From Chelativorans sp. J32 (GTDB taxonomy: Bacteria; Pseudomonadota; Alphaproteobacteria; Rhizobiales; Rhizobiaceae): a stretch of 64,000 nt of DNA. The DNA lies in NCBI RefSeq assembly GCF_000518985.1, contig NZ_JAEQ01000018.1:9114-73113 (forward strand), written 5' to 3'. Position numbers and translations under genes: made by a program. Under the pieces are notes generated by a model that did not search any database, had not been told where the DNA came from, and saw only the letters and a program-made list of their open reading frames with translations. Positions 40,534 to 57,990 of this stretch are shown one piece after another; the first letter of the stretch is position 1; every line of letters begins with the position of its first letter.

Positions 40534-40887
40534 TTAGCCCTTCACCGCAACGACCTGGACTTCCACCAGGACATCCGGGGCTGCCATGCGGGATTCGACG
40601 CAGGCGCGCGCGGGCGTATTGCCGGGCGATACCCACTTGTCCCAAACGGAATTCATCTCGTCGAAGTCCGCGATATCGCGGAGCCAGATATTCGCTTTAA
40701 GCAAATTCGACTTGTCCGTCCCCGCCTTTGCCAAAAGCTCGTCGATGCGCTGGAGCACCTGCGTTGTCTGGTCGGCGACGGACGTACCACCGCGCCGCTC
40801 GGCGACGATGCCGGCGAGGTATACGGTATCGCCATGGATGACGACCTGGCTCATGCGGGGACCAACTTCGATACGCTCAATCGACAT
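40534..40887 (-). CDS. RidA (YjgF/UK114) family protein
   Basis: Small trimeric imine/enamine deaminase family member, 117 aa from the ATG at 40887 with GGAG before it; the frame stays open further upstream. It keeps the family pattern (VYLAGIVAERRGGTS early, NLLKANIWLRD, and the conserved arginine in ARACVESRMAAPDVLVEVQVVA). RidA enzymes hydrolyse reactive imines released by flavin- or PLP-dependent enzymes. Last gene of the long minus-strand aromatic cluster, or possibly a partner of the D-amino-acid oxidase encoded by the convergent operon, whose product is an imine. Confidence 0.85.
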   Translation of the reverse strand: MSIERIEVGPRMSQVVIHGDTVYLAGIVAERRGGTSVADQTTQVLQRIDELLAKAGTDKSNLLKANIWLRDIADFDEMNSVWDKWVSPGNTPARACVESRMAAPDVLVEVQVVAVKG

Positions 40888-40926
40888 TTCTGCTCCGTGC
40901 TCCTGATCAATGGTCATGTAAAAGCA

Positions 40927-40946
40927 GGGGCTTTTTTTGTGGCCCC
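40927..40946 (-). terminator. Possible terminator after the acyl-CoA dehydrogenase gene
   Basis: On the minus strand GGGGC-CACAAAAAAA-GCCCC followed by TGCTTTT, 88 bases after the dehydrogenase stop and before the RidA gene. Short stem and short T run, so weak. Confidence 0.3.
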
Positions 40947-41033
40947 GCAACCCTTGTTGCCTTCGATCTTCCTCTTATGCAAGCGGAGACCGTCGCACGG
41001 CGTAAAAGCTTGAGCCCGCAAAGTCGCCGATCA

Positions 41034-42770
41034 TTACGACCACGGATCAGGGGCACTCCACGGAGCAGCGGCCAAATCTGCCGGGATTTGGCAACGCTTC
41101 TCCGCAGCGGTCATCTCCACTTCAGCCTCGTGAAGGCCGTAGCGGCCGATCGCGCCGAGATACCGGTCTGTCTCATCACGCGGCTTGTCGAGGAGGGAAA
41201 CGAGGCGCAACGACATCCACGCGAAAACGCAAGCCCAGGCTGCCCTGAGAAACGCATCGGCTCCGGTTTCAGCGGCGCCACGATCTGTCCTAAGACGCGA
41301 AAAATGTTCTGCTAGCGCCTCCAAGCGGCTCAATACATCCAGCGCCAGATTTGCCGCCTCGCGATCCGCGGCACGCGCCGCCTCCTGGCGTATCCTATCG
41401 GCGAGTATGCGAAGCCCCCGGCCCTCGTCTTTCCACAGCCGGCGGTGTAGGAGATCCAACGCCTGCATGCCCGTCGTTCCTTCGAAAATCGAGAGGATAC
41501 GGGAATCCCGCAGCAGCCTTTCCGCTGGCCATTCCTTCGTATAACCGGCACCGCCCAAAATCTGGATTGCCGCACTTGCCGTCTCGAAGCCGATCTCCGC
41601 GCCGAAATTCTTGGCCAGCGGCAAAAGCCATGCCGAAAGGGCCTCCAGGTCTCGGCCCTCCGCCTCGTTTCCGGTGAAGTTCGCCAGGTCGATGATGGCT
41701 GCCAGTTCCAGCACAAAGGCATGAAGAGCCTGGGTCCGGCAGGCCATGACAGTCAGTTGCCGACGGACATCGCAATGTTCGATGATCGGAATGGGCGCTC
41801 TTTCCGGAGCACCGCCTTGCCGGCGTTCGCAGGCATAGCGCTCGGCTATGTCCAGGGCGGCGAGTGCCGTCGCGGTGCCCTGCCCGGCCGTCAAAAGCCG
41901 CATTCGCTCGATCATCAGAAAAAGTTGTGGCAGGCCGCGGTTCAGCTCGCCAAGAAGGATGGCTTCGGCCTGCTCGAAGTTCAGCACGCAGGTGGGAGAA
42001 CCATGAAGGCCGAGTTTCTCCTCGATGCGTTCCACGGCAATGCCGGAGCGCCGATATCCGCCGCTGTCGTCGGGAAGACTATCCGGGACGAGGAAAAGGC
42101 TCAGCCCCCTCGTACCAAGCTCGGCAGGACCGGTCCGGGCGAGGAGGAGATGACCGATGCGGCTTGTGACGTCATGGTCGCCGAAGGAGATCCAGCATTT
42201 CTGTCCTGAGATGCGCCAGCGTCCGTCCGGCCCTCTATCTGCGCGTGTGCGGATACGGCCGACATCCGAACCGGCATCAGGCTCCGAGATGCAGATCGTC
42301 GCGCTCCATTCACCCGCGCCAAGGCGCGGTAACCACTCGCTTCGCGCCTCTTCATCGCCAAAAGCGTCGAGGACGAATACCGCAGAACGGGTGGACCCCG
42401 CGAGCATGGCGAATGCGGGGCATGCGCAGTCAAAAAGCATCTGGGCAGCGGTGTGCAGTGCCAGGGGAAGATCCTGACCGGCAGCCTCGGCGGGCAGGTC
42501 GAGCCCCAACCAACCCTCATCGCAGAGTGCATGCCAGGCTTCTTTGTAGCCTTGCGGCGCCACTACCCGTCCATTCACCAGCCGGCAACCCTCCCGGTCC
42601 GCGATCTGCGCGAGCGGTGCTATCCGATTTTCGGAAAATTGAGCGGCGCCCTCGATCACCATCCGGATCAGACCTGTGTCGAGTTCTTCCCTGCGCGAAA
42701 GAAGCTCGGACCAGGAAGGTGACACCTCAAGTAATCGCGCGGTTATGTCTGCCTGTCTCGCAAAGCTCAT
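41034..42770 (-). CDS. Acyl-CoA dehydrogenase (DmdC-like, long form)
   Basis: FAD enzyme of 578 aa that introduces an alpha-beta double bond into an acyl-CoA. It is larger than ordinary acyl-CoA dehydrogenases (about 380 aa) because it carries an extra C-terminal helical domain, as in DmdC/AidB-like proteins. Visible: ATICISEPDAGSDVGRIRT near residue 155, GQKCWISFGDHD, the QILGGAGYTKEWPAERLLRDSRI block and IFEGTTGMQALDLL near 440. Start ATG at 42770, 23 bases after the LysR gene, so it is in the same transcript. It might process CoA-linked aromatic side chains; the substrate is unknown. Confidence 0.83.
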   Translation of the reverse strand: MSFARQADITARLLEVSPSWSELLSRREELDTGLIRMVIEGAAQFSENRIAPLAQIADREGCRLVNGRVVAPQGYKEAWHALCDEGWLGLDLPAEAAGQDLPLALHTAAQMLFDCACPAFAMLAGSTRSAVFVLDAFGDEEARSEWLPRLGAGEWSATICISEPDAGSDVGRIRTRADRGPDGRWRISGQKCWISFGDHDVTSRIGHLLLARTGPAELGTRGLSLFLVPDSLPDDSGGYRRSGIAVERIEEKLGLHGSPTCVLNFEQAEAILLGELNRGLPQLFLMIERMRLLTAGQGTATALAALDIAERYACERRQGGAPERAPIPIIEHCDVRRQLTVMACRTQALHAFVLELAAIIDLANFTGNEAEGRDLEALSAWLLPLAKNFGAEIGFETASAAIQILGGAGYTKEWPAERLLRDSRILSIFEGTTGMQALDLLHRRLWKDEGRGLRILADRIRQEAARAADREAANLALDVLSRLEALAEHFSRLRTDRGAAETGADAFLRAAWACVFAWMSLRLVSLLDKPRDETDRYLGAIGRYGLHEAEVEMTAAEKRCQIPADLAAAPWSAPDPWS

Positions 42771-42793
42771 GGGCTATCTCCCCGCCAATCCTC

Positions 42794-44041
42794 TTAAGTG
42801 TCGTTGATCAAGTCGGGCCTGCAGCCTGCGTTTTCCGCAACTGCTTCACGCAGCGCGGAAATGAAATCGCGCTGAAGCACCGTCGGCTCCCAATTGCCGC
42901 GCCGCGTCATCCCGATCGGCCGGTCCGAATGCGGCAGATCGAAGGGGATGACGCCGAGCAAGCGGGCTTTTTCGTCATACTCGATCTGCTGGCGTGAGAG
43001 GATCGTGAGACGATCCGTCTGGAGGAGAATGCCGCGGATGGCGACCAGCGAGCCGGTGACAATGGTGCCGTGCGAAGACCATCCTCCCGGGAAAGCTTCG
43101 GCCAAACTCTCGAAGATTGCGCGGGTGGGCGTGCCCTGTCGTGGTAGGATCCAGGGGTAACGCGCCAGATCATGGTATGTCACCCGCGAGCGTTGCCGCA
43201 GCGGATGATCGGCCCGCGCGATGACCGACAATCCATCGCTGAACAGCGTTTCCTGCACCAGCCTGTTGTCGAGAGTGCGACGCCGGAGCGCGCCGACCAG
43301 AAGATCGATCTTGCCGGAGAGGAGCGCCATGACGAGGCTTTCGTAATCGCCGTCAAGCAGTTCGATGCTTGCGTGAGGACGGCGGCTTGAAAGCTTCGCA
43401 ATCGCCGCCGGGATGATCTTCGTGCGCACCAGGGGCAGCGTTCCGATGACAACCCGTCCGTCGAACGTACCCTCCATCTCCCTCACCTCCTCGCGGGCGC
43501 TGTCGAATTCCCGCAGGATGAGGTGGGCGTGGCTTGCAAGCATAGTGCCTGCAGGCGTCAGCCGGAGGGAACGATATGCACCTTCAAAGAGCTGGACGCC
43601 GACGATCCGCTCCAGCTGACGCGAAGCCCGCTGAACCGAAGGTTCGGCCTGCCCCAGCGTCCGGGCGGCGCCCTGGAAGGAACCCATATCCGCGAAAGCC
43701 GCGAGTGCGCGAAGCTGGGTGACGGTGGCATGCACCTCGAGCAGGTCCATGGCAAGGCCTTTGCCGATACGGGACTGACGCGCCAGATTGGTGCTGGCAA
43801 GGCGCAGGAGCTCGAGGCTCCGCCGGGCCCGGCGCGCGACGAGCAGGCCTCTTTCGGTTGGGGAAACCCTTGCCCCCTGCCGATTGAGGAGCAGTCCGCC
43901 GAAAAGGGCTTCCAGCTTGGAGATCGCCTGCGATGCGGCGGGTTGAGAGATGTGAACCGCTTCGGCTGCCCTGGAAAGCGAGGAAAGGTCGACAGCGGCT
44001 TCGAAAAGCCGGATATGGCGCAGGTTCGGATAGAGCGGCAT
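42794..44041 (-). CDS. LysR-type regulator with two DNA-binding domains
   Basis: Regulator of 415 aa, about 110 residues longer than usual LysR proteins. Two LysR winged helices are present in tandem: residues 5-65 (LSRAAEAVHISQPAASQAISKLE) and 107-166 (SFQGAARTLGQAEPSVQRASRQLE). The ordinary ligand-binding domain follows from about 185 (GRVVIGTLPLVRTKIIP onward). The ATG at 44041 starts the first helix; an in-frame start upstream is possible. It follows galD in the same direction by 64 bases, so it is likely the local activator of the ring-cleavage operon. Confidence 0.85.
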   Translation of the reverse strand: MPLYPNLRHIRLFEAAVDLSSLSRAAEAVHISQPAASQAISKLEALFGGLLLNRQGARVSPTERGLLVARRARRSLELLRLASTNLARQSRIGKGLAMDLLEVHATVTQLRALAAFADMGSFQGAARTLGQAEPSVQRASRQLERIVGVQLFEGAYRSLRLTPAGTMLASHAHLILREFDSAREEVREMEGTFDGRVVIGTLPLVRTKIIPAAIAKLSSRRPHASIELLDGDYESLVMALLSGKIDLLVGALRRRTLDNRLVQETLFSDGLSVIARADHPLRQRSRVTYHDLARYPWILPRQGTPTRAIFESLAEAFPGGWSSHGTIVTGSLVAIRGILLQTDRLTILSRQQIEYDEKARLLGVIPFDLPHSDRPIGMTRRGNWEPTVLQRDFISALREAVAENAGCRPDLINDT

Positions 44042-44105
44042 GCCGCCTTCTAAACCAGCAGACCTGATATCCAAAAGCGCCCCGCTCACTCCGGCGCCAC
44101 CATCG

Positions 44106-45161
44106 TCAGGGAAAAGTCAGGCCGTCAGACAATTTCCGGGCGGTCCTCAAGACCCCGGCTGACTGGACATTGCCGCTTTCATCAAGAGTGGCGATGACCG
44201 TAAACTCGCCGGTCGGATGTTCGACGGACATCGACTTGGCGCGCCCCTCGGGAACTTCGGCGTATTTCGCCGCCGGGCCTTCCTGCAGTAGGCAGGCGGT
44301 CGCAACGGTAACGGCACCCAGGACGCCGATCGCCTCGTGGACACGATGCGGGATGAAGCTTCGGGTCGAGATGACGCCGCCATGTCGCGACGGGCTTACC
44401 AGTGTCATCTTTGGCACGGACTTTTCCGCCACGTTACCGAGATGCATCAGCGGACCAGCCTTGAGGCGGATCGATTCAAGCCGGGTCTTCAGCCCCGTAT
44501 TTGCCTCAAGCTCCTTTGGCGCTTCCTGGCCGGAGATGCCAAAATCAGCCGCATCGAGAATGACGCAGGGCATGCCGTTATCGATCAGCGTTACGTCGAC
44601 ACCGTCGATCACATCGACGGCATTGCCGGAGGGCAGCAGCGCTCCGCAGGAAGAGCCTGCCGTGTCCTGGAACACGATGGGGATAGGAGCGGCCGTACCA
44701 GGCACCCCATCGATGCGAGCCTCGCCGGCATAGTTCACCTTGCCATCCGGTGTGTCCACCGTGGCGATGGCGATCTGGCCGGTGTTCTCCATGAAGATAC
44801 GGACGTCGGTCTTGTTTCCGGTTACCGGCACCAGCCCTCGCTCGATGGCAAACGGGCCTACGCCGGCGAGAATGTTGCCGCAGTTCTGGGAGTCGGTCAC
44901 GATGGGCTGATCGACGAAGACCTGCAGGAAGAGATAATCCACATCCACACCTTCGCGCTCGGAAGGCTTCACCACGGCCACTTTCGAGGTGAGCGGGTTT
45001 GCGCCGCCAAGTCCATCGATCTGGCGCGGATCAGGTGAGCCCATAATACGGAGCAGCAGCGCGTCGCGCTCACGCCGATCCTGCGGCAGGTCGGAGGCGA
45101 GGAAATAACCGCCCTTGGAGGTTCCTCCCCGCATCCACATGGCGCGGATGCCCTCAGACAT
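44106..45161 (-). CDS. galD: 4-oxalomesaconate tautomerase (PrpF family)
   Basis: Interconverts keto and enol forms of 4-oxalomesaconate (OMA), the ring-cleavage product of gallate. 351 aa, PrpF/diaminopimelate-epimerase-like fold. Family stretches: [14 protein letters not shown] near residue 7, [18 protein letters not shown] with the conserved cysteine near 91, and the late [24 protein letters not shown]. It overlaps galC by eight bases and follows galB and galC, which supports the specific name over a generic PrpF isomerase. Confidence 0.82.
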
Positions 45162-45825
45162 ATTTGAGGCCCTTCTCCTTCAATCTTTCACGCATATCGT
45201 AGAGATCGAGGCCGAGTTCGCCAGCCGCAAGCCGCCGGCGCTTGGCCTCCTCATTGGCGACGCGCGCCTCGGCGGCCTTGAGCACTTCACCAGCCCTTTC
45301 CCGCGAAACGACGCAGACGCCGTCGTCGTCAGCGACGATCACGTCTCCCGGATTGACAAGCGCGCCTGCGCAGACGACTGGCACATTGACGGAGCCAAGC
45401 GTTTCCTTGACGGTTCCCTGCGCCGATACATAGTGCGACCAGACGGGAAAGCCCATCCTGGTTAGATCGGCAATGTCCCGCACACCGGCATCGATGACGA
45501 GCCCCCGGCAGCCGCGGGCCATGGCCGACGTGGCAAGGAGGTCGCCGAAATAGCCGGCATCCGACGGCGATGTGGGCGCAAGAACGAGCACGTCACCTTC
45601 CCTGATCTGCTCGATGGCCACATGCAGCATCCAGTTGTCGCCGGGCGGTGCAGAAATTGTGACGGCAGAGCCTGCAATCCGAGCCCCGGAATAGATCGGC
45701 CGCATATAGGAGGCGAGAAGCCCGGTGCGCTCTTGCGCCTCGTTGACGGTCGCCACCCCGCATTCCGCCAGCCCGGCGATAACCGCCGGATGGGCACGCG
45801 CGATATTCTGAACCACCACACCCAT
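45154..45825 (-). CDS. galC: 4-carboxy-4-hydroxy-2-oxoadipate aldolase (LigK/GalC)
   Basis: RraA-fold class II aldolase of 223 aa that splits 4-carboxy-4-hydroxy-2-oxoadipate into pyruvate and oxaloacetate. Very characteristic stretches: [69 protein letters not shown] and [14 protein letters not shown], which carries the substrate and metal residues; ADDDGVCVV follows. The ATG overlaps the galB stop by one base (TGATG). It is the last chemical step of the gallate/protocatechuate 4,5-cleavage pathway. Confidence 0.9.
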
Positions 45826-46556
45826 CAGAGCTCATCCACCGTACGAGGGAAGATCGATTGGAACGCCTCGGCATATTTCGCTTCGCGCCCGCCGGCCTGC
45901 CCGCCGGAATTGCGGCGGAACTGGTTGGCCCGGTTTTCCGCGACATTGGTGTAATATTGCCAGAGATGCTGCTGGCCCTCCATGCATTCGATCGCGGCGC
46001 GCTTCTGGTCCCACACCTCGGTGATGTCGAGGATCGTGTCGGGTTTCCAATTGCACTGCTCGGTCTGGTGCGGCTCATAGAGATAAAGCTGCGGAGCCCC
46101 TAGAATCTTCTCGCCCGGATTGTGCCCCCAGGCCTGCGCGATCATCCGGCACTCGATCGCCATTCTGGTCGCGTAGGGATGATCGGTGTTGTACGGATCC
46201 TCTAGAGAGTGCGAGAGCATAAAGGCGGGCTGCACTTTGCGGATGACGTCGACCAGCCGGTATTTCGCCTCCCGGTCCATCTCCAGCGGATAGTCGCCGA
46301 GATCGAAGAACTGGATGTCGTGGACGCCGAGCGCCTTGGCCGCGCCTTCTGCCTCTTCACGGCGGGCGGCCTTCACGCCTTCGAGGGTGGCGCCGGGGGC
46401 TTTCCACAGCTTGGCACTCTCACCGCGCTCGCCGAAGGAAAGGCAGACCACCGTGACATCGTAACCCTTCCTCTGGTGAAGGGCGATGGCGCCGCCACAA
46501 CGCCACACGAAATCCGCCGAATGGGCGCTGATGATCAGGGCCGTCTTGTTGCTCAT
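45825..46556 (-). CDS. galB: 4-oxalomesaconate hydratase (GalB, PIG-L-like)
   Basis: Zinc protein of the PIG-L/LmbE fold, 243 aa, which in the gallate pathway hydrates OMA to 4-carboxy-4-hydroxy-2-oxoadipate. The metal motif is the variant AHSADF (near residue 11) in place of the deacetylase AHPDDE; the second ligand block [17 protein letters not shown] is present. I choose the ATG at 46556, which has GAGGAG before it; an in-frame ATG at 46571 overlaps the dioxygenase stop. The galB-galC-galD order and coupling support the hydratase role over a deacetylase. Confidence 0.82.
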
Positions 46557-46567
46557 GCCGCTTCTCC

Positions 46568-47533
46568 TCAAGATTTCTGCGCCGGATCGACCGGCGGCGT
46601 GCCGTGCGTATGAAAGGTCTCGATCGTCTTCATGCCCCAGGCCTGCCCCTTCTTCCGCTCGGCCTCGGTCCAGGTGATGGGCTGCCAGTCGGGCCTCAGG
46701 ATCAGCCGCGCACCGGCATTGGCCACCTCGACGCGATTTCCCGCCGGCTCATAGGCATAGAGGAAGAAGGTCTGCTGGATTGCATGCTTGTGCGGACCGG
46801 ACTCGATGAAGACCCCATTTTCGAGGTAGATATCCGCTGCGCGCAGCACGTCATCGCGGCTGTCCACCGCATAGGTGAGATGGTGGAAGCGGCCCGAGGC
46901 GCCGTAATGGTCCTCCGTGCAAGCCAGATCATAGCTCTTGTTGTTGACCGTGAACCAGCAGCCGGCAAGACGGCCATTGTCGAGCACCACCTGCTCGGTG
47001 ACGCGGCTGCCGAGCGCCTCGATCATGAAGTCGCGGATTTGCGATACGTCGCTCGCAAGCAGGTTCACATGGTCGATGCGGCGCACGCAAACGCCTCGCC
47101 CATGGAAGCGCTGCGCCACGTTCTTCAGCGCCGGCCGCTCCTCAGGCGGCGCAACATAGAGATTGGTGTCGTAATAGAGTTCGAAGATGTGCCCGTCGGG
47201 GCTCTTGAAGCGGTAGGCGCGGCCGTGACCGAGATCGCCATCCACCCAGCCGATCCCGAGCCCCATCTTCTCGATCACCGCGACGCGGCGCTCCAGCGCC
47301 TCGGGCGAGGAGGTGCGGTAACCGACATGCCCCATCCCGGTCGTGTCCGACCGGGTGAGCTTCAGACTATGGTACTCGTAGTCGTCCCAGCCGCGGAGAT
47401 GGGCGGAATTTTCATCTCGACCGCTCTCCGTCATGCCATAGACGTTGACGAAGAAATTGAGGCTCTCCTCGAACTTGTTCGTCAGAAGCTCGACATGGCC
47501 CAGATGGGCGACATCGAAGCATGGCTCCGCCAT
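46568..47533 (-). CDS. VOC-family extradiol ring-cleavage dioxygenase
   Basis: Type I extradiol dioxygenase of 321 aa with two glyoxalase-like (VOC) modules, as in catechol 2,3-dioxygenases. The active iron site in the second module appears intact: H155 (RIDHVNLL), H217/218 (RFHHLTYAV) and E269 (NRVEV). It lies in the middle of the cluster, between the YCII protein gene and galB, although LigAB already provides a ring-cleaving enzyme of a different fold. It may open another catechol, for example a methoxylated or substituted one. Stop overlaps the upstream in-frame ATG of galB. Confidence 0.82.
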   Translation of the reverse strand: MAEPCFDVAHLGHVELLTNKFEESLNFFVNVYGMTESGRDENSAHLRGWDDYEYHSLKLTRSDTTGMGHVGYRTSSPEALERRVAVIEKMGLGIGWVDGDLGHGRAYRFKSPDGHIFELYYDTNLYVAPPEERPALKNVAQRFHGRGVCVRRIDHVNLLASDVSQIRDFMIEALGSRVTEQVVLDNGRLAGCWFTVNNKSYDLACTEDHYGASGRFHHLTYAVDSRDDVLRAADIYLENGVFIESGPHKHAIQQTFFLYAYEPAGNRVEVANAGARLILRPDWQPITWTEAERKKGQAWGMKTIETFHTHGTPPVDPAQKS

Positions 47534-47542
47534 GGTCTCCTC

Positions 47543-47857
47543 CTATTTCGTCAATGGATCGATCCGCTGCGCCTGGAAGGTGTCGGCGAGCCTCACGAGT
47601 TCGACGTTCTCAACAACACCGTTGATATGAAAGGGGTCCTGTTCAGCGAAGGCCCGCGCCCTTTCGTAAGTTTCAGCCTCCAGGATACCGAAGTTTCCGA
47701 TGCCGCTGCCGGTCTCGCGTTCCCAAAGTGCGCTGCCGGTCAGCACCTTCGCCAAGCCGCGCCCACCAGTGGCGACATGCTCGCGGTGCTTTGGCCTGAG
47801 TTCGTCGCGCAATTCGGAAACCCCTTCCCGGTGCCTGCAGATCATGAGGAAATACAC
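47543..47857 (-). CDS. YCII-related small protein
   Basis: Ferredoxin-like fold protein of 104 aa from a GTG at 47857 with GAGGAGG before it; the frame is open upstream but only overlaps the ligB gene. Pattern YFLMICRHREG ... RPKHREHVATGG ... SGIGNFGILEAETYERARAFAEQDPF matches YCII/muconolactone-isomerase-like proteins. In such clusters these small proteins are thought to assist isomerisation or lactone handling, but the role is not proven. Placed between the two ring-cleavage dioxygenase genes. Confidence 0.72.
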   Translation of the reverse strand: MYFLMICRHREGVSELRDELRPKHREHVATGGRGLAKVLTGSALWERETGSGIGNFGILEAETYERARAFAEQDPFHINGVVENVELVRLADTFQAQRIDPLTK

Positions 47858-47870
47858 GAAACCTGCCTCC

Positions 47871-48713: not shown

Positions 48714-49080
48714 TGAGCTTCTTTCCAAGTCTCTCGGTGAGGAATTCAGTGTGATCCATGCCGGCCTGCGCGGCCCCGATCTGCGTTATCGGCACCGGGT
48801 CGACGGCGGAAATCTTGAGAATGAAGAAGAGATTGCCGCCAAGGCGGACCATCTCGCGCCAATCGCGCGATTTGACGGCAGCCTTTTCCTCGGCCGTCAG
48901 TCCATAGGAATCGAGAAATGCCTCCTCATTCGCCTTGAAGGCCTCCCGGTTCCTTTGATCGCTGAGCGCCATCGCCATCTTGTTGATGCGGTAGCCGGCG
49001 ATATTCCGCTTCCGGTCGAGAAGCGGTGTTTCGGGAATGGTGCCCGTACCGTCGGCTGGCGCACTCACTGCGGAATCCAT
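48706..49080 (-). CDS. ligA: Class III extradiol dioxygenase, alpha subunit (LigA-like)
   Basis: Small helical subunit of 124 aa that covers the active site of LigB. Family pattern: YRINKMAMALSDQRNREAFKANEEAFLDSYGLTAEEKAAVKSR is typical in composition (motif near residues 30-75), with GGNLFFILKI after it. The two-gene alpha/beta layout is that of protocatechuate 4,5-dioxygenase; most gallate dioxygenases (DesB/GalA) are single fused chains. It starts 16 bases after the alpha/beta hydrolase gene region in the opposite reading sense of the map, i.e. directly upstream of ligB. Confidence 0.87.
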   Translation of the reverse strand: MDSAVSAPADGTGTIPETPLLDRKRNIAGYRINKMAMALSDQRNREAFKANEEAFLDSYGLTAEEKAAVKSRDWREMVRLGGNLFFILKISAVDPVPITQIGAAQAGMDHTEFLTERLGKKLNG

Positions 49081-49806: not shown

Positions 49807-51111
49807 TTATCCGATCATCGTGCTGGGCAGATAAAGCGCGATCTGGGGGAACAGCACGAGGATGATGACCGCCAGCAGCATCACCAGCCAGAAGGGCGCC
49901 ACACCGACGAAGATGTCACGCAACGGAACGTGCGGCGCGACCGATTTGACGATGAAGACATTGACACCGACGGGCGGACTGATGAGCCCCATTTCCAACG
50001 TGATCACGACGAGCACGCCGAACCAGATCGGATCGAAACCCAACGCCATCACGGCCGGGAAGAAGATGGGCATGGTCAGTACCAGCATGGCGAAGCCCTC
50101 CAGGAACAGGCCAAGCACCATGTAGCAGGCGAGGATCAGCGCCAGGACCACGGTCGGCCCGACATCGAGGCCGGTCAGGAAGCCGGCGATTTCGTGAGGG
50201 ATGCGGCTGAGCGCGAGGAAGGGGTTCAACAGATGGGCCGATATCAGGATCAGCATCACCGTCGCGGTCGTGACGATCGAATCCCGAAGCGCCCTATAGA
50301 GCCCGTCGAATTTTAGCTGTCGCGTCACTGCGCCGGAGAGGATGACCAGGCCTGCGCCGACGGCCGCAGCTTCCACAGGCGAGAAGAAGCCCAGATAGAT
50401 GCCCCCGATCGTAAGCAGGACGATGACCAGGATCGGGACAGCGCCAAGAAGGGCTGCCGATTTCTCCCTCCAGCTGGTTCGCGGGCCCGGCGGACCATAA
50501 TCGGGCCACAGATAGGAGAGCGCCGTGATCAGGATGATGAACATGATCAGGAGCATGATTCCTGGAAGGACTCCGGCAAGGAACAGGCGCCCGATCGACT
50601 GCTGAGTCAGGATCGCATAAACCACGAAGCCGGTGGATGGCGGGATGAGGATACCCAGCGTGCCACCTGCCGCGACCGCCCCGGTGGATAGCTTCGGGCT
50701 GTAATTGAATCGGTCCATCTCCGCGAGCGAGACCCGTCCCATGGTGAGAGCGGAGGCGACCGAGGAGCCGCAGAGCGCCGCAAAACCGCCGCAGCCGATG
50801 ATGGTGGCAGACGCCAGACCGCCCTTGACCGAGCCGATGAGCGCATAGGCTGCATCGTAGAGCCTGCGGCTCATGCCGCTTTCTGTGGCGACATTGCCCA
50901 TCAAGATGAACAACGGAACAACGATAAGCTCCGCGCTGGAAGCAAGCGTGAATGTTTCGCTTGCCAGAAGGTTCAAGGCGTTGCTGGGACTGGCAAGAAC
51001 GGAGACGCCCACGAGCCCGACCGTAAACATGGCAAAGGCCACCGGAACGCGCAGGGCAAACAGCACAAAAAGTGCGACGAGGCCGAGAAGGCCGATCACT
51101 GTCGCGCTCAC
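49807..51111 (-). CDS. dctM: TRAP transporter large permease (DctM)
   Basis: Inner-membrane subunit of a sodium-coupled TRAP importer for organic acids; 434 aa with about twelve hydrophobic segments. Family blocks: RVPVAFAMFTVGLVGV early, IPLFI-like VVPLFILMGNVATESGMSRRLYD, GGTLGILIPPSTGFVVYAI and the C-terminal GLISPPVGVNVFIV. GTG start overlaps the dctQ stop (GTGA). The importer probably brings in an aromatic acid. Confidence 0.93.
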   Translation of the reverse strand: MSATVIGLLGLVALFVLFALRVPVAFAMFTVGLVGVSVLASPSNALNLLASETFTLASSAELIVVPLFILMGNVATESGMSRRLYDAAYALIGSVKGGLASATIIGCGGFAALCGSSVASALTMGRVSLAEMDRFNYSPKLSTGAVAAGGTLGILIPPSTGFVVYAILTQQSIGRLFLAGVLPGIMLLIMFIILITALSYLWPDYGPPGPRTSWREKSAALLGAVPILVIVLLTIGGIYLGFFSPVEAAAVGAGLVILSGAVTRQLKFDGLYRALRDSIVTTATVMLILISAHLLNPFLALSRIPHEIAGFLTGLDVGPTVVLALILACYMVLGLFLEGFAMLVLTMPIFFPAVMALGFDPIWFGVLVVITLEMGLISPPVGVNVFIVKSVAPHVPLRDIFVGVAPFWLVMLLAVIILVLFPQIALYLPSTMIG

Positions 51112-51617
51112 GGCATCGCCTCCTTATGCTCCGCGCGGCGATCTTCTCGGAGAATGAGTTCGAGGCCGCGCAAAAACATGCCGAGCGCGGTGAGAATGGA
51201 GAACCCGGCCAGGGCCCACTGGAACCACGCTTTGGGAAGCTGGATGATGTTCGTCGCCAGATTGAGCATCAGCGAGAGCTGGGCGGATTGGATAACCTTC
51301 CAGGCGACCGCACCAAACAGCACGACTCCGAGAAAGGCGACGCAGATATCGATCACCCGGTTCATCCTCGGTGGAAACGCATTCTCGAAGATGTCGATCG
51401 CGATATGCCCCCCATGACGACCGCAGTAGGCCATGCCGCCAAAGACGATGATCACCATGCCCATCTGGCCGATGTCCTGGGCGCCGCGAAGAGGTGCTCC
51501 GAAGTAGCGCCCGATCACATCGATCAGGATCACGATCGTGACGAGTGCGAGCGCCACGCTTCCCAGGATGTTGGACAGGCCGATGAGCCTGTCCACAACG
51601 CTGCGCAAAGATCTCAT
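51108..51617 (-). CDS. dctQ: TRAP transporter small permease (DctQ)
   Basis: Small four-segment membrane protein of 169 aa that pairs with DctM. The pattern VIGRYFGAPLRGAQDIGQMGMVIIVFGGMAYCGRHGGHIAID is typical of DctQ proteins in composition (motif near residues 37-78). Sits between dctP, 22 bases upstream, and dctM, which it overlaps. Confidence 0.9.
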   Translation of the reverse strand: MRSLRSVVDRLIGLSNILGSVALALVTIVILIDVIGRYFGAPLRGAQDIGQMGMVIIVFGGMAYCGRHGGHIAIDIFENAFPPRMNRVIDICVAFLGVVLFGAVAWKVIQSAQLSLMLNLATNIIQLPKAWFQWALAGFSILTALGMFLRGLELILREDRRAEHKEAMP

Positions 51618-51639: not shown

Positions 51640-52638
51640 TCAGTTCTTTTTCAGCATCGCGTCCAGGACGTCCTGCGCCCCCATATCTGCGATCAGTTTG
51701 GTGCGCAGATCGTCCGCGATCTTCGTGAAGGGAGCGATCTCCTCGGCAGTCAGGTCGATAACCGTGTTGCTCGGATCCGCGCGCACCTCCTGCAGCGTGC
51801 GTTCGGCGGCGGCATTCCAGCCTTCCTCGCCCTTCTGGGAGAGGGTGCGGCCGGTATGCTTGTCGAGAATCGCCTTGTGCTCGGGGCTCAGACCGTCATA
51901 ACGGGCCTGGTTCATAACCAGATAGAACATGATGTTCCCGAGCGGAGCGCCGAGCGTGTAGGAATTCGCCACCTCGTCGAGCTTGAAGTCGTTGATCGCG
52001 CTGGAGCCGGTGACGATACCGTCGATGAGCCCCGTCTGCAGGGCGTTATACATTTCACCGGCCGGCATCTGCACCGGCGTGGCGCCAAAAGCCTCGACGA
52101 GCGCGCCCGATACGGAGCCCGAGACGCGGATACGCAGGCCCTTGAGGTCACCGGGTGAACGGATCTCGTGATCCTTCATGATGAAGACGTTCGGCTCCGA
52201 TATCCAAAGCGCCAGCGGATGCGTGCCGGGGAACTCGCTCTTGAGATGGTCGTCGAAGGCGTTCCAGAGCATATCGTAGCCGGTCATCCCCTCCGGCACG
52301 GCGCCCGGCATCTCGACGATCATCGATTTGGGAAATTGCGACGAGGTGTAGCCGGACAGTCCCCAAGTGATGTCGGCGACGCCCTGGACAGCGCGCACAT
52401 ATTGCTCCATCGGCCCGGCGCCCAATTCCCCGCCGGGATAGACACGAATCGTAAGATCGCCGTTGCTATCCGCCTTCACGCCTTCGACCAGCGGCTCCAC
52501 CACCGACGCGGTCACGACGTGAGCCGGCGCCACGAAATGCGCCAGCGACAGTTCCTCTGCCTGCGTCAGCGCCGGAACGGCGACCATGCTCGACGCGAGC
52601 ATCAAGGAAGCGATGGATCCTCTCAACCAAGCTTTCAT
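51640..52638 (-). CDS. dctP: TRAP transporter substrate-binding protein (DctP)
   Basis: Periplasmic binding protein of 332 aa. Signal peptide MKAWLRGSIASLMLASSM, cut after PALTQA near residue 27. DctP-family patterns: ADITWGLSGYTSSQFP, LRIRVSGSVSGALVEAFGATPVQMPAGEMYNALQTG in the carboxylate-binding area with the conserved arginine, and GIVTGSSAI. The start at 52638 has GGGAGGAAAA before it. The ligand is probably an aromatic carboxylate given the surrounding genes. Confidence 0.92.
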   Translation of the reverse strand: MKAWLRGSIASLMLASSMVAVPALTQAEELSLAHFVAPAHVVTASVVEPLVEGVKADSNGDLTIRVYPGGELGAGPMEQYVRAVQGVADITWGLSGYTSSQFPKSMIVEMPGAVPEGMTGYDMLWNAFDDHLKSEFPGTHPLALWISEPNVFIMKDHEIRSPGDLKGLRIRVSGSVSGALVEAFGATPVQMPAGEMYNALQTGLIDGIVTGSSAINDFKLDEVANSYTLGAPLGNIMFYLVMNQARYDGLSPEHKAILDKHTGRTLSQKGEEGWNAAAERTLQEVRADPSNTVIDLTAEEIAPFTKIADDLRTKLIADMGAQDVLDAMLKKN

Positions 52639-52696
52639 GATTTTTCCTCCCTGCAAAAGCGCTCCGGCGCAGCGCTGCCAAGCCGGACATACCCCT

Positions 52697-52814: not shown

Positions 52815-53723
52815 TCAGCCTTTTCTTGTCTGTCCGGCGTCAGACTTCTGCTGAAGAGCATCCGAGGCCCGCCTTGCCACCTCCGCCGGATCAGTGACCT
52901 TGCCGAGTTTCAAGCCAAGGCCGCCGACGCTTGCCTGCAATTCGGCGATCGCCGCGGCCAGCGCGCGCCCTTCAGGAAAACCGAGCTCGCTCATCGCAAC
53001 GGCGGATTCCCGCATTTCGGCAGCCCGGCGGGTGCCGTGCGTCGCGACGCGCTCGAACTGGTAAGAAAGGAACCGGTCCCATTCGAATTGCGGGAAGCTC
53101 TCGGCAAGGGAGGCCTTCACCCGTTCCAGGCAGCCTGCCCTGTGGGCCGCCATCAGCATCTGCACGCTGATCGCTTCGAGTCCTTTCACGAAGAGGCTGC
53201 GCACCATCTTGATGGTTGCCGCCATGCCGGGCTCACGCCCCACCATCTCGAAGTCGAAGCCAAGTTCCTCGAGCTGCCCGATAAGAGCCGTATCGATCGA
53301 ACCGGCCACCAACACCGGTGAGCGATGGCCTCGCGGGTGCACTGGCGACATCACGGCCATATCCACGTAGCGGGCGCCCGATGGCGCCAGAAGCGCAGCG
53401 GTCTGTTGCTTCACGCCAGCAGAGACGGAATTGATGTCGAAATAGACCTGGCCGGACCGGAGTGCGGTGGCCACGAACCGGCCGGCATCGAGGCTCGATG
53501 CAGCCGTGACCGCGGCAATAACCCAATCTGCTCCCGCCACCGCTTCATTCGGCGTTTTGGCAAGCCTGACGTCCGTCTCTTCCGCGGCTTTCCTGATCGG
53601 AGCGCCGTCGCCGGTGTCCAGAAGGATATCATAGGCGGAAAAGAGGAGTCCTGGCCGCGCCTCCTTGAGGCTGTTCGCAAAAGCACGTGCGGCCTCGCCA
53701 AAACCTATGAACGAAACATGCAT
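52815..53723 (-). CDS. NAD(P)-dependent dehydrogenase (6PGDH-like with DUF1932 domain)
   Basis: Beta-hydroxyacid-dehydrogenase-type protein of 302 aa. The Rossmann start MHVSFIGFGEAARAFANSL gives the nucleotide site (GxGxxA), and YVDMAVMSPVHPRGHRSPVLVAG is the substrate-side block; residues about 190-260 match the DUF1932 C-terminal helical domain. Reaction unknown. Placed between purU and dctP in the aromatic cluster, so it could reduce or oxidise a hydroxy-acid, aldehyde or semialdehyde intermediate; it is not of the LigC fold. Confidence 0.75.
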   Translation of the reverse strand: MHVSFIGFGEAARAFANSLKEARPGLLFSAYDILLDTGDGAPIRKAAEETDVRLAKTPNEAVAGADWVIAAVTAASSLDAGRFVATALRSGQVYFDINSVSAGVKQQTAALLAPSGARYVDMAVMSPVHPRGHRSPVLVAGSIDTALIGQLEELGFDFEMVGREPGMAATIKMVRSLFVKGLEAISVQMLMAAHRAGCLERVKASLAESFPQFEWDRFLSYQFERVATHGTRRAAEMRESAVAMSELGFPEGRALAAAIAELQASVGGLGLKLGKVTDPAEVARRASDALQQKSDAGQTRKG

Positions 53724-53813: not shown

Positions 53814-54665
53814 CTATTCCGGAAACACGATCGTCTTGCTGCCGTTGAGCAGCACCCGATCGTCCAGATGATAGCGCACGGCACGCGCGAGCACGCGGCG
53901 CTCGATATCCCTGCCCTTGCGGATCAGCCCCTCAGGCGTATCGAGATGGCTTATCCGCTCCACATCCTGCTCGATGATCGGACCTTCGTCGAGATCGCCG
54001 GTCACGTAGTGCGCAGTTGCACCGATAAGCTTCACGCCGCGCTCGAATGCCTGATGGTAAGGCTTCGCGCCTTTGAACCCCGGCAGGAAGGAGTGATGGA
54101 TGTTGATGCAGCGGCCGTAAAGATCGGAGGCGAGTTCGTCCGACAGGACCTGCATGTAGCGCGCCAGGACCACGAGATCCGCCGTCGTCTCCTCGATCAC
54201 GCCCCTGAGCTCCTGCTCCTGTTTGGGCTTCGTCTCCTTGGTGATCGGCAAGTGCCAGAAGGGCAGATCGCCCATCATGATGTTACTGTAGATATCGCGC
54301 GGATAGTTGGAGACGATGCCCGCGATCTCCATCGGGAGCTCGCCCGACCGCCATCGGTAGAGGAGATCGACAAGACAATGATCGAAACGGGAGACGAGCA
54401 GAAGCACCCTGCGGCGCTCGGCCTGGTCACGTAGGGCCCATTTCATGCCGAACCGCTCAGTCACCGGCGCAACGGCTCCCCGCACGGCCTCGCCCTGTAG
54501 GTTTGGTCCCCTGAAGACAATGCGGATGAAGAACTGGCCGGTGACCGTGTCTCCGAACTGCTGCAGGTCCTGGATATCGCAGCCCAGGTGAAAGATCGTG
54601 GTGGAAAGAGCCGAAACGATACCTGGCCGGTCGGCGCAATAAGCCGTGAAGACAAAGGACTGCAT
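53814..54665 (-). CDS. purU: Formyltetrahydrofolate deformylase
   Basis: Hydrolyses 10-formyl-tetrahydrofolate to formate and free tetrahydrofolate. 283 aa: N-terminal ACT domain ([20 protein letters not shown]) and a formyltransferase-type catalytic domain with [18 protein letters not shown] and [20 protein letters not shown], which holds the catalytic Asn/His. Start at 54665; a longer frame overlaps metF and is discounted. Six bases after metF in the same direction. In this cluster it would release the methyl-derived carbon as formate and regenerate THF for the demethylase. Confidence 0.92.
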
Positions 54666-54670
54666 CTTCC

Positions 54671-55576
54671 CTACCTTACCGCTTCGAGGCCAGCGAAATG
54701 GGCAACCCACTCGGCCGTGTTCTTCACTCCACCGAAAGGATAGAAATGAAGCGCGACATCGCCATGGATGCGCGGATTTAGGCCGCTTGCAAATTCCTCT
54801 ATGATGCGGTCCGGCCCGGCGGTCGTAAGAAGCTTGGTAATGGACACGCCATACTTCGCCATGACCTTCGCCGAAGCCCCGACGCCGCAACGGGCCGCGA
54901 AGCGAAGCAGCGTCTTGACGCTTGCCGGGCCGGCGACCCCGACGCGCACTTTGGCTTCGATCCCTTCCTCGCGCACACGCTCCAGCCATGTGAGCACCGG
55001 CCCCGCGTCGAAGCCGAACTGGGTGGTGATCTCGCATTCGTGCCCAAGGACCTTGAGGGCGGCATGCTTGTCCTTCAGGGCGCGCCAGAGCTTCTCCTCG
55101 GAAATCTGCGGATGTCCCTCGGGATAACCGGAGATGCCGACGCGACCGATACCGTGCTTTGCCAGCAGGCCGGACTGGATGACCGCAAGTGCATCCTCGA
55201 AAGGGCCTTCAGGCTGGGCGGGATCTCCCGCCACCACGAAGGCGCTCTCCACCCCGTGCTGGGCGAGCCGCGAGAGGAATGTTTCAAGCTCCGCCGTGGA
55301 TTTCAATCGTCGTGCAGAAATATGAGAAACGGGACTGAACCCCAGGCGCTTGGCAGCACCGGCGGCAGCCACACGCGCATCGACATCCTCACCCGGCAAA
55401 AACGTGACGGAGATCGACGTTCCTGCGGGCACGAGCTGTGCTGCTTCGCTCAGGCTGTTCACGTCCTTTGCGGTGATCTCGATCGAGTGGCCGCGCAGAA
55501 GTTTGCGCATCCTTTCGCCCAGACCATGTCCCGAGTCTTCGCCGATATTTCTGCTATCCTGCGTGACCAGCGCCAT
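54671..55576 (-). CDS. metF: 5,10-methylenetetrahydrofolate reductase
   Basis: FAD enzyme linking 5-methyl- and 5,10-methylene-THF. 301 aa from the ATG at 55576, which has GGAGGAA before it; the longer frame is discounted. Blocks: [54 protein letters not shown] and [19 protein letters not shown]. In methionine synthesis it forms methyl-THF; here, next to a THF-dependent O-demethylase and purU, it more likely runs in reverse to oxidise methyl-THF. Confidence 0.9.
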
Positions 55577-55645
55577 CGCACATTCCTCCAATTGCCCAAT
55601 GCCTGCCATCGCCGCACCGCGGGAGGGTAGACGGCAGCACCCTCT

Positions 55646-55677: not shown

Positions 55678-55703
55678 CCCTTGTTCAATGATTGCCCTTG
55701 CGT

Positions 55704-57110
55704 TCAGGCCGCTCCCTGGGCCCGCCAACCGCCTTCGACATAGGTCTTGCGAACGGTTTCCACATAGGGAACGGGGCTCACGATCGCGCGGATCTCCATC
55801 TGCCTGTGAGGCTCGACGGTGGGCTTTGCCGTCCCACCACCTTCCTCACCCCAGACGAAGATCACTTCCTGACCAGGCTGCGCGTATTCTTCCTCGAGGA
55901 TCGCGAGCGTGAGCATCTTGCGCTCGTTGGAGCTGTAGCCGACCCAGGTGGAAATGCCGACCGTCTCGCCGCTGCCGACGATCACCTTGTCATAGGGATG
56001 CATCGAATAGACTGCCGATGGAAATTCCATGAACTTGCCACGGCCGTCGCCTTTTTGGAGCTGTGAGGCAAAGACGCGGATAACATCCTCGTTTTCCAGC
56101 GCGAGCGTCACCTTCTTGCGGTGCGGCTGCTTTGCCCTTTCCTCAAGCGCCTCGCGGCCGATGAAGTCGTGGTCGAACTTCAGCACATGGCCATAGCCCA
56201 GATCCCAGGGCGTGAGATAGTAATCCTCGATACTGTCGGAAACGAAGCTGCCGCCGATCGAGGCCTTCGCTTCGTAACTGTCTTCCGTCAGCCACTGGCG
56301 ATAAGCTTTCATCTTCTCGCCCGTATAAACGGCCGGCAGCGGTGACGGGACCCAGCCGGACTCCAGCGTGTTGGACGAATAGGCGCGCCCGCCGACCTGG
56401 AGCAGCCCAAACTCCTCACCCGCCCTGACGATCGCCTCACGCACCGCCTCGCCTTCGGCCCAGGGACCGAAAAGCTCATAACCGGGCTGGCCGGCCATGC
56501 CGTGGCGCAGCGCGCGCACCTTCTTTCCGGCGATCTCGATGGTCGTCATGTTGAAGAATTTGAGTTCCGGCGCGGGCTTGCCGGTCAGTTTCTCCACCAC
56601 CTTCACGGCATTCGGGCCCTGGATCTGGAACCGATAGGACTTCCTGTTGAAGGGGTCGGGCCGTGCGGCCGAGCGCTCGTCGAGCTCAAGCTTCACGTCA
56701 TAGCGGCCGGTTTCCGCATGGAAGCGAATCCAGTTCAACACTGGAATGCGGCCCACGAGATTGAAGCTGTTCTCGGCCAGATAAAACAGGATGACGTCGC
56801 CGATCACATAGCCGTCATAGGAGCAAGGAACGAACTGCTTGGCCTTGTCGACGGCGAAATTCGCAAAGCTGTTGATGCCCAGATGCGACAGGAGCTTCAG
56901 CGCGTCCGGCCCTTCAACGGCGAGATCAGCCATGTGATAGGACTGGTTGAAGAGCACGCAAGTGTTCTGCCAGGCAGCTTGCTCGTTACGCCAATTGGTG
57001 AATTCGGCCGGAACGCCCGGATAGACGTTCGGACCAGTCTTCTGATTGCGGAGGAGCTCAACAGGATTGCCACTCTCCTGAAGCAGGTCTTCAAGGCTGC
57101 GTTTCGACAT
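55704..57110 (-). CDS. ligM: Tetrahydrofolate-dependent aromatic O-demethylase (LigM/DesA-like)
   Basis: GcvT-fold methyltransferase of 468 aa, the size of LigM (about 470 aa) and clearly larger than the glycine cleavage T-protein or DmdA (about 370 aa). It would move the methyl group of vanillate, 3-O-methylgallate or syringate onto THF. Visible: WQNTCVLFNQSYHMADLAVEG near residue 48, NSFNLVGRIPVLNWI, GQPGYELFGPWAEGEAV near 205, IGREALEERAKQP and the C-terminal VPYVETVRKTYVEGGWR. Downstream metF and purU supply THF recycling, as expected for this enzyme type. DmdA or a choline-type demethylase is less likely. Confidence 0.78.
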   Translation of the reverse strand: MSKRSLEDLLQESGNPVELLRNQKTGPNVYPGVPAEFTNWRNEQAAWQNTCVLFNQSYHMADLAVEGPDALKLLSHLGINSFANFAVDKAKQFVPCSYDGYVIGDVILFYLAENSFNLVGRIPVLNWIRFHAETGRYDVKLELDERSAARPDPFNRKSYRFQIQGPNAVKVVEKLTGKPAPELKFFNMTTIEIAGKKVRALRHGMAGQPGYELFGPWAEGEAVREAIVRAGEEFGLLQVGGRAYSSNTLESGWVPSPLPAVYTGEKMKAYRQWLTEDSYEAKASIGGSFVSDSIEDYYLTPWDLGYGHVLKFDHDFIGREALEERAKQPHRKKVTLALENEDVIRVFASQLQKGDGRGKFMEFPSAVYSMHPYDKVIVGSGETVGISTWVGYSSNERKMLTLAILEEEYAQPGQEVIFVWGEEGGGTAKPTVEPHRQMEIRAIVSPVPYVETVRKTYVEGGWRAQGAA

Positions 57111-57125
57111 TCCAGGCTCCCTCCC

Positions 57126-57145
57126 TCAATTTCATTATCGTGAAA
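57126..57145 (-). promoter_or_regulatory. Candidate IclR operator before ligM
   Basis: Perfect inverted repeat AATTTCA-N6-TGAAATT, 15 bases before the ligM start and directly before its ribosome-binding site (GGGAGG). The same half-site and spacing recur at the start of the IclR gene, which points to one protein binding both. Confidence 0.65.
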
Positions 57146-57227
57146 TTACACACTCATGAAGCATAGGGAAGGGAGCGCTGTCAAGCGGCGCTCTTCCGTG
57201 GTCACTCGCAAAACGAGGGGCGGGGAT

Positions 57228-57968
57228 TCAGGCGGCGCTGTTCAACTCGTCCAGGCCGCGCCTGATCTCATCCGCGATCTTCCGCTCGGTCAGGTGATCG
57301 AACCGCGGAGAAGGAATGCCTACGCTCAGACTATGCTGGTGATCGAGAGCCACGCCGATGCCCATGACTCCGATCGTATGCTCCTCGCGCGAGAGCGCGT
57401 AGCCGCGGTCCCTCGTGCGCTTCAGATCGTCCCGAAGGCTCTGCTCTTCAACAAGCGTATAAGGCGTAAAGCGGATGCGCGGCGCAGTCGCGAAATACTC
57501 ATCGAGAAGATCCGGCGGAAGCGCAGCAAGCAGGGCCTTTCCCGACGCAAAGCTGTGGAGCGGGACGCGCATGCCCTTTTGCGGCGTGAAGCGAAGGGCG
57601 TGGCTGGAAGCCTCTACGTCGAGCACTTCCACATCACTGCCGCGCCTGATGAACAGGGACGCCGTTTCGGCGGTTGCCCGCGCGATGGCGCGCATCACGG
57701 CAACTCTGCGCTGGGTGATATCCAGCGGATTTCCGGCAGCAAGACGAGAGACCGCCGGCCCGATGCTGTAGGTCCTGTCGGAGGCCGGAGACAGCCACTC
57801 CCGACTGACAAGCGTCGTCAGCAGATAGGAGAGACTGCTTTCCGGGATTCCCGTCGCACGGCTGATCTCACGCGCGGTCGCTGCCCCCTTGCGGGACACC
57901 TGCTCGACGATATCCATGGCTCGGGCCGCGGACTTCACAGAGGCTGAGGGCTTATCTTTCGTCAACAT
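57228..57968 (-). CDS. IclR family transcriptional regulator
   Basis: Regulator of 246 aa: winged helix at residues about 10-70 (VKSAARAMDIVEQVSRKGAATAREISRATGIPESS) and an effector-binding GAF-like domain (MRVPLHSFASGKALLAALP, FTPYTLVEEQSLRDDLKRTRDRGYA, GVALDHQ). IclR proteins often control aromatic degradation (PcaR, PobR, VanR-type functions). It lies directly upstream of ligM in the same direction, and both genes carry the same palindrome. No Shine-Dalgarno is seen before its ATG; the palindrome occupies that place. Confidence 0.88.
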   Translation of the reverse strand: MLTKDKPSASVKSAARAMDIVEQVSRKGAATAREISRATGIPESSLSYLLTTLVSREWLSPASDRTYSIGPAVSRLAAGNPLDITQRRVAVMRAIARATAETASLFIRRGSDVEVLDVEASSHALRFTPQKGMRVPLHSFASGKALLAALPPDLLDEYFATAPRIRFTPYTLVEEQSLRDDLKRTRDRGYALSREEHTIGVMGIGVALDHQHSLSVGIPSPRFDHLTERKIADEIRRGLDELNSAA

Positions 57969-57970
57969 GC

Positions 57971-57990
57971 AATTTCATATACGTGAAGAA
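57971..57990 (-). promoter_or_regulatory. Candidate IclR autoregulatory operator
   Basis: AATTTCA-TATACG-TGAAGAA, identical in the left half and spacing to the ligM site and sharing TTCA-N6-TGAA. It ends two bases before the IclR start codon, so binding would block both promoter clearance and translation start. Supports negative autoregulation. Confidence 0.55.

Follow-up and report, generated by a model that had tools for sequence, protein, structure and literature searches.

A predicted syringate/3-O-methylgallate/gallate catabolic cluster of Chelativorans sp. J32 with a proposed type I gallate dioxygenase of the VOC superfamily

Hydrolysable tannins and syringyl lignin enter catabolism by way of gallate and 3-O-methylgallate (3MGA). 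A cluster of 19 minus-strand genes of Chelativorans sp. J32 encodes two kinds of extradiol dioxygenase, a LigAB-like pair and a VOC-superfamily protein, and raises the question of which enzyme is responsible for opening gallate in these bacteria. The cluster occupies positions 40534-57968 of the analyzed 64,000-nucleotide stretch of contig NZ_JAEQ01000018.1 (the window; assembly GCF_000518985.1, positions 9,114 to 73,113 of the forward strand). Every frame was open in the open reading frame check, and families were called with Pfam and NCBIfam profiles, using curated cut-offs where available; the about 19 consecutive genes and the families named in the original prediction were thereby confirmed. 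The gene order is IclR, DesA, MetF, PurU, DUF1932 oxidoreductase, DctP, DctQ, DctM, alpha/beta hydrolase, LigA, LigB, YCII, VOC dioxygenase, GalB, GalC, GalD, LysR, acyl-CoA dehydrogenase, and RidA. We regard it as probable that the cluster is a catabolic operon for syringate, 3MGA, and gallate with recycling of the one-carbon (C1) unit, in which the VOC protein acts as a type I gallate dioxygenase; its substrate range perhaps extends to 3MGA. What is chiefly new in this proposal is that the VOC enzyme would take the place of the type II enzymes GalA/DesB without being evolutionarily related to them.

In the phylogenetic tree, the VOC protein belonged to a clade of 57 sequences with a support of 99/98 and a long-branch warning on the outgroup rows. 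Linkage to gal genes was seen on both the acidobacterial and the proteobacterial sides of the clade. Nine plasmid-borne proteins from Agrobacterium, Pantoea, Chimaeribacter, Roseomonas, Thermus oshimai, Thioclava, and a Paracoccaceae strain were placed within it. The metal-ligand positions H155, H218, and E269 and the second-sphere residues H250 and Y259 were retained in all clade (57/57) and plasmid (9/9) members; the roles of these residues and of the acid/base residue, as well as the His199/His200 numbering, are presumed from catechol 2,3-dioxygenase (XylE) and homoprotocatechuate 2,3-dioxygenase (HPCD). The usual acid/base His position was occupied by Tyr201 in 56 of the 57 clade sequences and in all nine plasmid members (65/66 overall); the exception was Cys in the acidobacterial locus L030, and all 10 outgroup sequences had His. 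The second-sphere His of catechol 2,3-dioxygenases (His199/His200 of XylE/HPCD) was absent from the window protein. The PDB chain closest to it, 9wgj, had Tyr at the same position of the alignment. An excerpt of PMC5291488 describes His200 mutants of HPCD in which the reaction was slowed.

Homology searches with the window VOC protein covered 385 genomes of the class, 397 of the order, and 398 of the phylum. The class sample contained five non-self genomes with 67-78% identity, followed after a gap by five at 47-49%, with the rest near 30%. High-identity-type matches were present in 59 of the 397 order genomes (own genome included, one match partial), and 20 of the 398 phylum genomes had a match, 18 of them from the window's own order. 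Gene neighbourhoods were analyzed in stretches of up to 20 kb from 45 VOC-bearing genomes, comprising all five non-self high-identity class hits and 40 order hits. A galB, galC, or galD gene lay in the stretch in 28 of these 45 loci (galB in 27, galD in 26, galC in 25), compared with galBCD in none of 10 outgroup loci (Fisher test on galB, clade versus outgroup, p = 0.0004), and the VOC gene stood between galB and galC in nine. The same loci also contained genes for DUF1932 (17), LysR (14, of which 12 encoded proteins of 388-429 residues), DctP (13), demethylase (five), and ligAB (two). The DUF1932 oxidoreductase accompanied galBCD and the VOC gene even in loci without a demethylase (e.g., L098, L100, L101, L173, and L179). 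The LysR protein of the window has two tandem HTH_1 domains, an architecture shared by all eight relatives from gal clusters that were scanned.

Comparison from the demethylase side gave a similar picture. Among 62 loci with DesA/LigM homologues, a VOC homologue was nearby in 12; LigA and LigB together were found in L011, L019, and L057, and LigB alone in L055. LigAB as the conserved ring-opener was rejected on these counts, and in this comparison the conserved core contains the VOC dioxygenase, whereas ring opening had originally been attributed to LigAB. The closest relative, a Chelativorans genome (L004, 93%), had the same operon arrangement from iclR to galD within the stretch except for the ligAB/YCII/hydrolase module: none of ligAB, YCII, and the hydrolase gave a match in this operon, and a MetE-like gene (PF01717; L004:17262-18365) stood in their place. 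This MetE-like family also occurred in eight DesA/LigM loci. Mesobaculum L054 and the acidobacterial loci L030, L036, L039, and L040 contained a demethylase, the VOC gene, and galBCD, with no ligAB hits. The core of the cluster is thus found again, rearranged, in a different phylum, Acidobacteriota, and therefore the arrangement is beyond chance. Ten demethylases were scanned, namely eight neighbours of VOC genes (out of 17 such loci) and the second copies present in our own genome (contig C13) and in L004. Seven of these eight neighbours exceeded the LigM cut-off; that of L054 was below it (564 vs. 580) and scored higher with the DesA model (623.6, cut-off 800). LigM-type demethylases make gallate from 3MGA.

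Of 76 plasmid records that matched, nine were analyzed, and galC was present in seven of the nine loci. The plasmid pAt of Agrobacterium tumefaciens from walnut carried galB, VOC, galC, and galD followed by a gene of the tannase/feruloyl-esterase family (PF07519, 437.9 bits); a tannase would release gallate. On the Paracoccaceae and Thioclava plasmids, the order galB-VOC-galC-galD occurred together with a TRAP importer and LysR, and on the Pantoea plasmid the VOC gene adjoined an aromatic acid symporter and DUF1932-galD-galC-galB. The Chimaeribacter plasmid had the VOC gene with no gal genes in the stretch.

Within the order sample, GalD over the cut-off was found in 46 of the 59 genomes with the VOC gene and in 48 of the 338 without it (uncorrected for relatedness) and, by genus, in 29 of 31 VOC-bearing genera. 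A LigB-superfamily gene was absent from 13 of 32 hand-chosen VOC-bearing genomes. Six of these 13 (G476 and G749, completeness 99%, and G1097-G1100, metagenome-assembled genomes (MAGs) of unstated completeness) carried galB, galC, and galD next to the VOC gene, and none of the six had a LigI match over 24 bits. In these six, the VOC protein is the only candidate supplier of 4-oxalomesaconate (OMA) among the kinds of enzymes searched, cupin-type ones not being among them. The evidence tilts towards the VOC clade being a new family of type I gallate dioxygenases, with Tyr in place of the catalytic His, standing in for GalA/DesB. Such a family would be frequent in the window's own order and scattered through other Alphaproteobacteria, Gammaproteobacteria, Acidobacteriota, and Deinococcota, in some cases plasmid-borne, and gallate use would have been overlooked where its genes are annotated otherwise.

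The 19 genes of the cluster, all on the minus strand and listed in the direction of transcription, are as follows:
57228..57968, minus: IclR-type regulator, candidate desA regulator (Pfam HTH_IclR and IclR_C; 117 bases before desA)
55704..57110, minus: predicted DesA-type tetrahydrofolate (THF)-dependent syringate O-demethylase (NF047633, 875.7 vs. cut-off 800)
54671..55609, minus: MetF-like methylene-THF reductase (Pfam MTHFR; under the NCBIfam cut-off; start chosen in this analysis)
53814..54665, minus: PurU formyl-THF deformylase (TIGR00655, 314.9 vs. 285.95; start chosen in this analysis)
52815..53723, minus: DUF1932 6PGDH-like NAD(P) oxidoreductase (Pfam; in 17/45 VOC-clade loci)
51640..52656, minus: TRAP substrate-binding protein DctP (Pfam DctP)
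51108..51617, minus: TRAP small permease DctQ (Pfam DctQ)
49807..51111, minus: TRAP large permease DctM (Pfam DctM; TIGR00786, 300.2 vs. 268.45)
49097..49792, minus: alpha/beta hydrolase, candidate CHMOD methylesterase with an MgaC-like role (Pfam Abhydrolase_1; by ligAB in L100, L151, and L176)
48706..49080, minus: LigA-like alpha subunit (PF07746, 95.8 bits; TIGR02792, 76.4 vs. 108.6)
47871..48713, minus: LigB-like catalytic subunit, type II extradiol dioxygenase, candidate 3-O-methylgallate dioxygenase (PF02900, 190.4 bits; PRK13364, 368.2 vs. 290)
47543..47863, minus: YCII-domain protein, speculative CHMA tautomerase (PF03795; start uncertain; same module in L100 and L151)
46568..47533, minus: VOC (type I) extradiol dioxygenase, proposed gallate dioxygenase (TIGR03211, 336.6 vs. 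320.2; own clade; gal-linked; Tyr201)
45825..46556, minus: GalB 4-oxalomesaconate hydratase, PIG-L fold (PDB 5cgz, 331.5 bits; PF02585)
45154..45825, minus: GalC CHA aldolase/oxaloacetate decarboxylase, RraA-like (TIGR02798, 382.3 vs. 304.5)
44106..45161, minus: GalD 4-oxalomesaconate tautomerase, PrpF-like (NF033377, 532.4 vs. 440)
42794..44089, minus: LysR-type regulator, candidate gal regulator (Pfam: two HTH_1 stretches and LysR_substrate)
41034..42770, minus: acyl-CoA dehydrogenase, last closely spaced gene (Pfam)
40534..40887, minus: RidA-family protein (PF01042)

From dctQ through the acyl-CoA dehydrogenase gene, each gap was at most 23 bases or an overlap, with starts as chosen in this analysis; at least this part therefore probably forms one transcript. 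Gaps of 117 bases before desA, 97 before metF, 90 before the DUF1932 gene, 173 before dctP, and 143 before RidA were wider. At the 3' end (40534-42770), the acyl-CoA dehydrogenase and RidA had no match beside gal genes in the 45 VOC-clade loci.

The window demethylase, a GCV_T family protein earlier called LigM-like, did exceed the LigM cut-off (NF047885, 660.1 vs. 580), but the DesA model gave a higher score, also above its cut-off (875.7 vs. 800). It aligned over about 460 residues with the LigM structures 5x1i/5tl4 and, as counted from the alignment, retained Tyr244 as the equivalent of Tyr247, the presumed catalytic residue of LigM. Its nearest homologues found were those of a Chelativorans MAG (93%) and then of Nitratireductor aestuarii (81%). 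The predicted association of THF-dependent O-demethylation with gallate/3MGA ring opening outside the sphingomonads is supported. A second demethylase of the same genome, on contig C13, had 59% identity to the window copy, scored 771.9 with LigM and 667.4 with DesA (under the DesA cut-off), and was directly preceded by an MTHFR gene. Because the DesA model fits the window copy better and LigM fits the C13 copy, the cluster most likely holds the syringate enzyme, the vanillate/3MGA (LigM-type) enzyme being located on contig C13. In the closest Chelativorans relative, a second demethylase divergent from the operon (L004:7611-8966) scored 662.9, below the DesA cut-off, and 609.8, just above the LigM one. 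With the LigM-type enzyme on another contig and folD not among the 19 genes, the cluster is not the fully self-contained island that had been proposed. As for its regulator, DesX of Sphingobium SYK-6 is likewise of the IclR type according to an excerpt of PMC12314914.

The role of LigAB in the cluster was considered separately. The window LigB was under the cut-off for gallate dioxygenases GalA/DesB (PRK13367, 304.7 vs. 412), and LigAB consists of two chains, not one; the PDB scores of LigB were 302.6 bits to 1b4u and 243 bits to DesB 3wku. The module YCII-ligB-ligA-hydrolase also occurred in L100 and L151, in the latter near VanA, and Roseomonas mucosa had LigA-LigB-hydrolase-VOC together with DUF1932, a Rieske oxygenase, GntR, and a VanB-type reductase. 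In the syringate operon of Pseudomonas sp. NGC7, as described in an excerpt of PMC12314914, the proposed roles are opening of 3MGA for the LigAB-like MgaAB and removal of methanol for the hydrolase MgaC. Because the gene set and the VanA/Rieske/VanB-type context mirror this operon, we infer that ligAB, the hydrolase, and YCII may form a 3MGA branch parallel to the gallate branch. Alternatively, the VOC enzyme could itself open 3MGA directly to CHMOD in a DesZ-like manner and be served by the alpha/beta hydrolase, gallate being a minor substrate. The overlap of the VOC and hydrolase genes in L047 and Roseomonas and the presence in the cluster of DesA, the product of which is 3MGA, speak for this option; it is nevertheless unlikely, given that the hydrolase was found in only 2/45 and a demethylase in only 5/45 clade loci and that the tannase-family gene of one plasmid lineage points toward gallate.

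In the lower pathway, GalD and GalC exceeded the cut-offs of NF033377 and TIGR02798, and GalB gave 331.5 bits to PDB 5cgz. GalB, GalC, and GalD act on OMA, and the protocatechuate 4,5-route to OMA requires LigI. A LigI homologue scoring 366 bits against PDB LigI 4d8l, used as a query, found no match in the genome of the strain at E 0.001 (LigC was not searched). The window LigA was below the protocatechuate LigA cut-off TIGR02792 (76.4 vs. 108.6), and PcaH was present over the cut-off with a weaker second match adjoining, probably PcaG. Since LigI was unmatched, LigA was under the cut-off, and PcaH was present, protocatechuate most likely goes by ortho cleavage in this organism; on the same grounds, vanillate/protocatechuate meta-cleavage, previously offered as a possible main role of the cluster, was rejected. 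Cleavage of protocatechuate by the VOC enzyme is doubtful as well. In that reading, LigM or PobA would supply the substrate, and the semialdehyde would be oxidized toward OMA by DUF1932 or by an aldehyde dehydrogenase. This would agree with the gene context in Thermus oshimai, the formation of protocatechuate, too, by LigM, the NAD(P) oxidoreductase DUF1932 in 17/45 loci, and the LigI homologue in 5/45, but homologues of two query aldehyde dehydrogenases were found in only 2/45 clade loci, and our genome combines PcaH with no LigI match.

That the VOC protein is an ordinary catechol 2,3-dioxygenase present in gal operons by chance, with LigAB performing all gallate/3MGA cleavage here, is very improbable: the window protein and L030 pass TIGR03211 (336.6 and 340.9, cut-off 320.2), but the gal-operon sister L101 fails it (303.6), the linkage recurs in Pseudomonadota, Acidobacteriota, and partly Deinococcota, and some hosts with gal genes have no LigB-superfamily gene.

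Several observations weigh against a gallate dioxygenase role of the VOC clade. The evidence is purely genomic, and every substrate and activity proposed here is deduced from sequences, families, synteny, the clade, and the active-site substitution. The closest PDB chain, 9wgj, bears the name 'Catechol 1,2-dioxygenase'. The clade, common within the window's order, was sparse outside it in the phylum sample; 17 of the 45 clade loci lacked any gal gene within the stretch, and GalD over the cut-off was found in only 1 of the 12 VOC-bearing genomes of the genus g5. As 17/45 loci were gal-less and g5 was mostly devoid of GalD, the clade as a whole may hold other substrates besides gallate. A LigI homologue occurred in 5/45 clade loci. 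The Thermus oshimai plasmid (L177) carried the VOC gene and galB-/galC-like genes (PIG-L, aldolase) beside PobA and aldehyde dehydrogenase, with no GalD in the stretch, and is possibly a protocatechuate variant. The overlap of the VOC and hydrolase genes in L047 and Roseomonas is consistent with 3MGA too. The tannase link comes from one plasmid lineage, the protein search having matched no other fetched locus, and PF07519 also takes in feruloyl esterases. For the six elimination genomes, cupin-type and other ring-openers were not searched, and completeness was unstated for four of the six, all MAGs.

The argument that VOC and LigA complement each other in genomes with GalD was tried and rejected: strong LigA (>90 bits) was found in 10/40 genomes with GalD and VOC versus 14/40 with GalD and no VOC (p = 0.46), or in 12/40 versus 16/40 with the curated LigA cut-off. 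Fourteen of the 94 GalD-bearing genomes were left out of this comparison: 13 were less than 90% complete or more than 5% contaminated, and G493 was dropped to keep to 80 genomes. GalD also proved to be an impure marker. Of the 26 GalD-positive, VOC-negative genomes without strong LigA, 12 were inspected, and six of them had GalD without galB/galC. The other six had real gal clusters, four of them (L155, L156, L157, and L160) with a LigI homologue; L153 (a short stretch) and L154 lacked an explanation by strong LigA or LigI. The GalD-like proteins without galB/galC nearby (L158, L159, and L161-L164) were 46-51% identical to the window GalD and passed the OMA tautomerase cut-off; they probably have another PrpF-family role.

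In the favoured syringate/3MGA/gallate pathway, the TRAP importer would take up the aromatic acid, DesA would transfer the first methyl group of syringate to THF, yielding 3MGA, and MetF and PurU would recycle the C1 unit. Two routes could lead from 3MGA to OMA. Along the first, modelled on the proposed roles of MgaAB, MgaC, and MgaD of Pseudomonas NGC7, LigAB would open 3MGA to CHMOD, the alpha/beta hydrolase would strip methanol, and YCII would perhaps isomerize the product. Along the second, the LigM-type paralogue of contig C13 would make gallate and the VOC dioxygenase would open it. By our own derivation, gallate cleavage between C4 and an adjacent carbon that bears a hydroxyl group yields 4-carboxy-2-hydroxymuconate, which is the enol form of OMA, and therefore the gallate route requires no dehydrogenase. 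GalD, GalB, and GalC would then convert OMA to pyruvate and oxaloacetate.

The cluster shares with the syringate pathway of Sphingobium SYK-6 and Novosphingobium DSM 12444 (DesA, LigM, DesZ/LigAB, DesB, LigU/J/K) the THF-dependent DesA and LigM, an IclR-type gene by desA, and OMA as the meeting point, but differs in the GalBCD lower pathway, the VOC dioxygenase, the absence of a LigI match, and the organization in one compact operon. With Pseudomonas sp. NGC7 (VanA1B1, MgaAB, MgaC, MgaD, GalBCD; PMC12314914), it has in common the LigAB-like pair and the alpha/beta hydrolase feeding GalBCD, a likeness of gene set and context; unlike NGC7, it has a THF demethylase for VanAB, YCII for the SnoaL-like MgaD, and an extra VOC dioxygenase. 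GalB, GalC, GalD, and a LysR-type gene are shared with the gallate pathway of Pseudomonas putida KT2440 (GalA, GalBCD, GalR), the GalA of which is a type II LigB-superfamily enzyme, whereas the proposed gallate dioxygenase of the window belongs to the unrelated VOC superfamily. XylE and HPCD are of the VOC family as well and share the H155, H218, E269, H250, and Y259 positions; the window clade differs from them by Tyr at the acid/base His, its separate clade, and the gal operon context. The gallate dioxygenases named in excerpts of PMC4250580 and PMC12314914 are of the LigB superfamily, and a literature search limited to open-access papers found no report of a type I gallate dioxygenase.

One purified protein would allow a direct test of which enzyme is responsible for gallate opening in these bacteria. 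If our reading is true, a second, unrelated type of gallate-opening enzyme would change the annotation of many genomes (59/397 in the order sample), gallate use having been missed where the gene is labelled 'catechol 2,3-dioxygenase' or 'VOC family protein'. It would also offer a natural His-to-Tyr active site for studies of the extradiol mechanism and could serve as a new part in routing aromatics from lignin to 4-oxalomesaconate.

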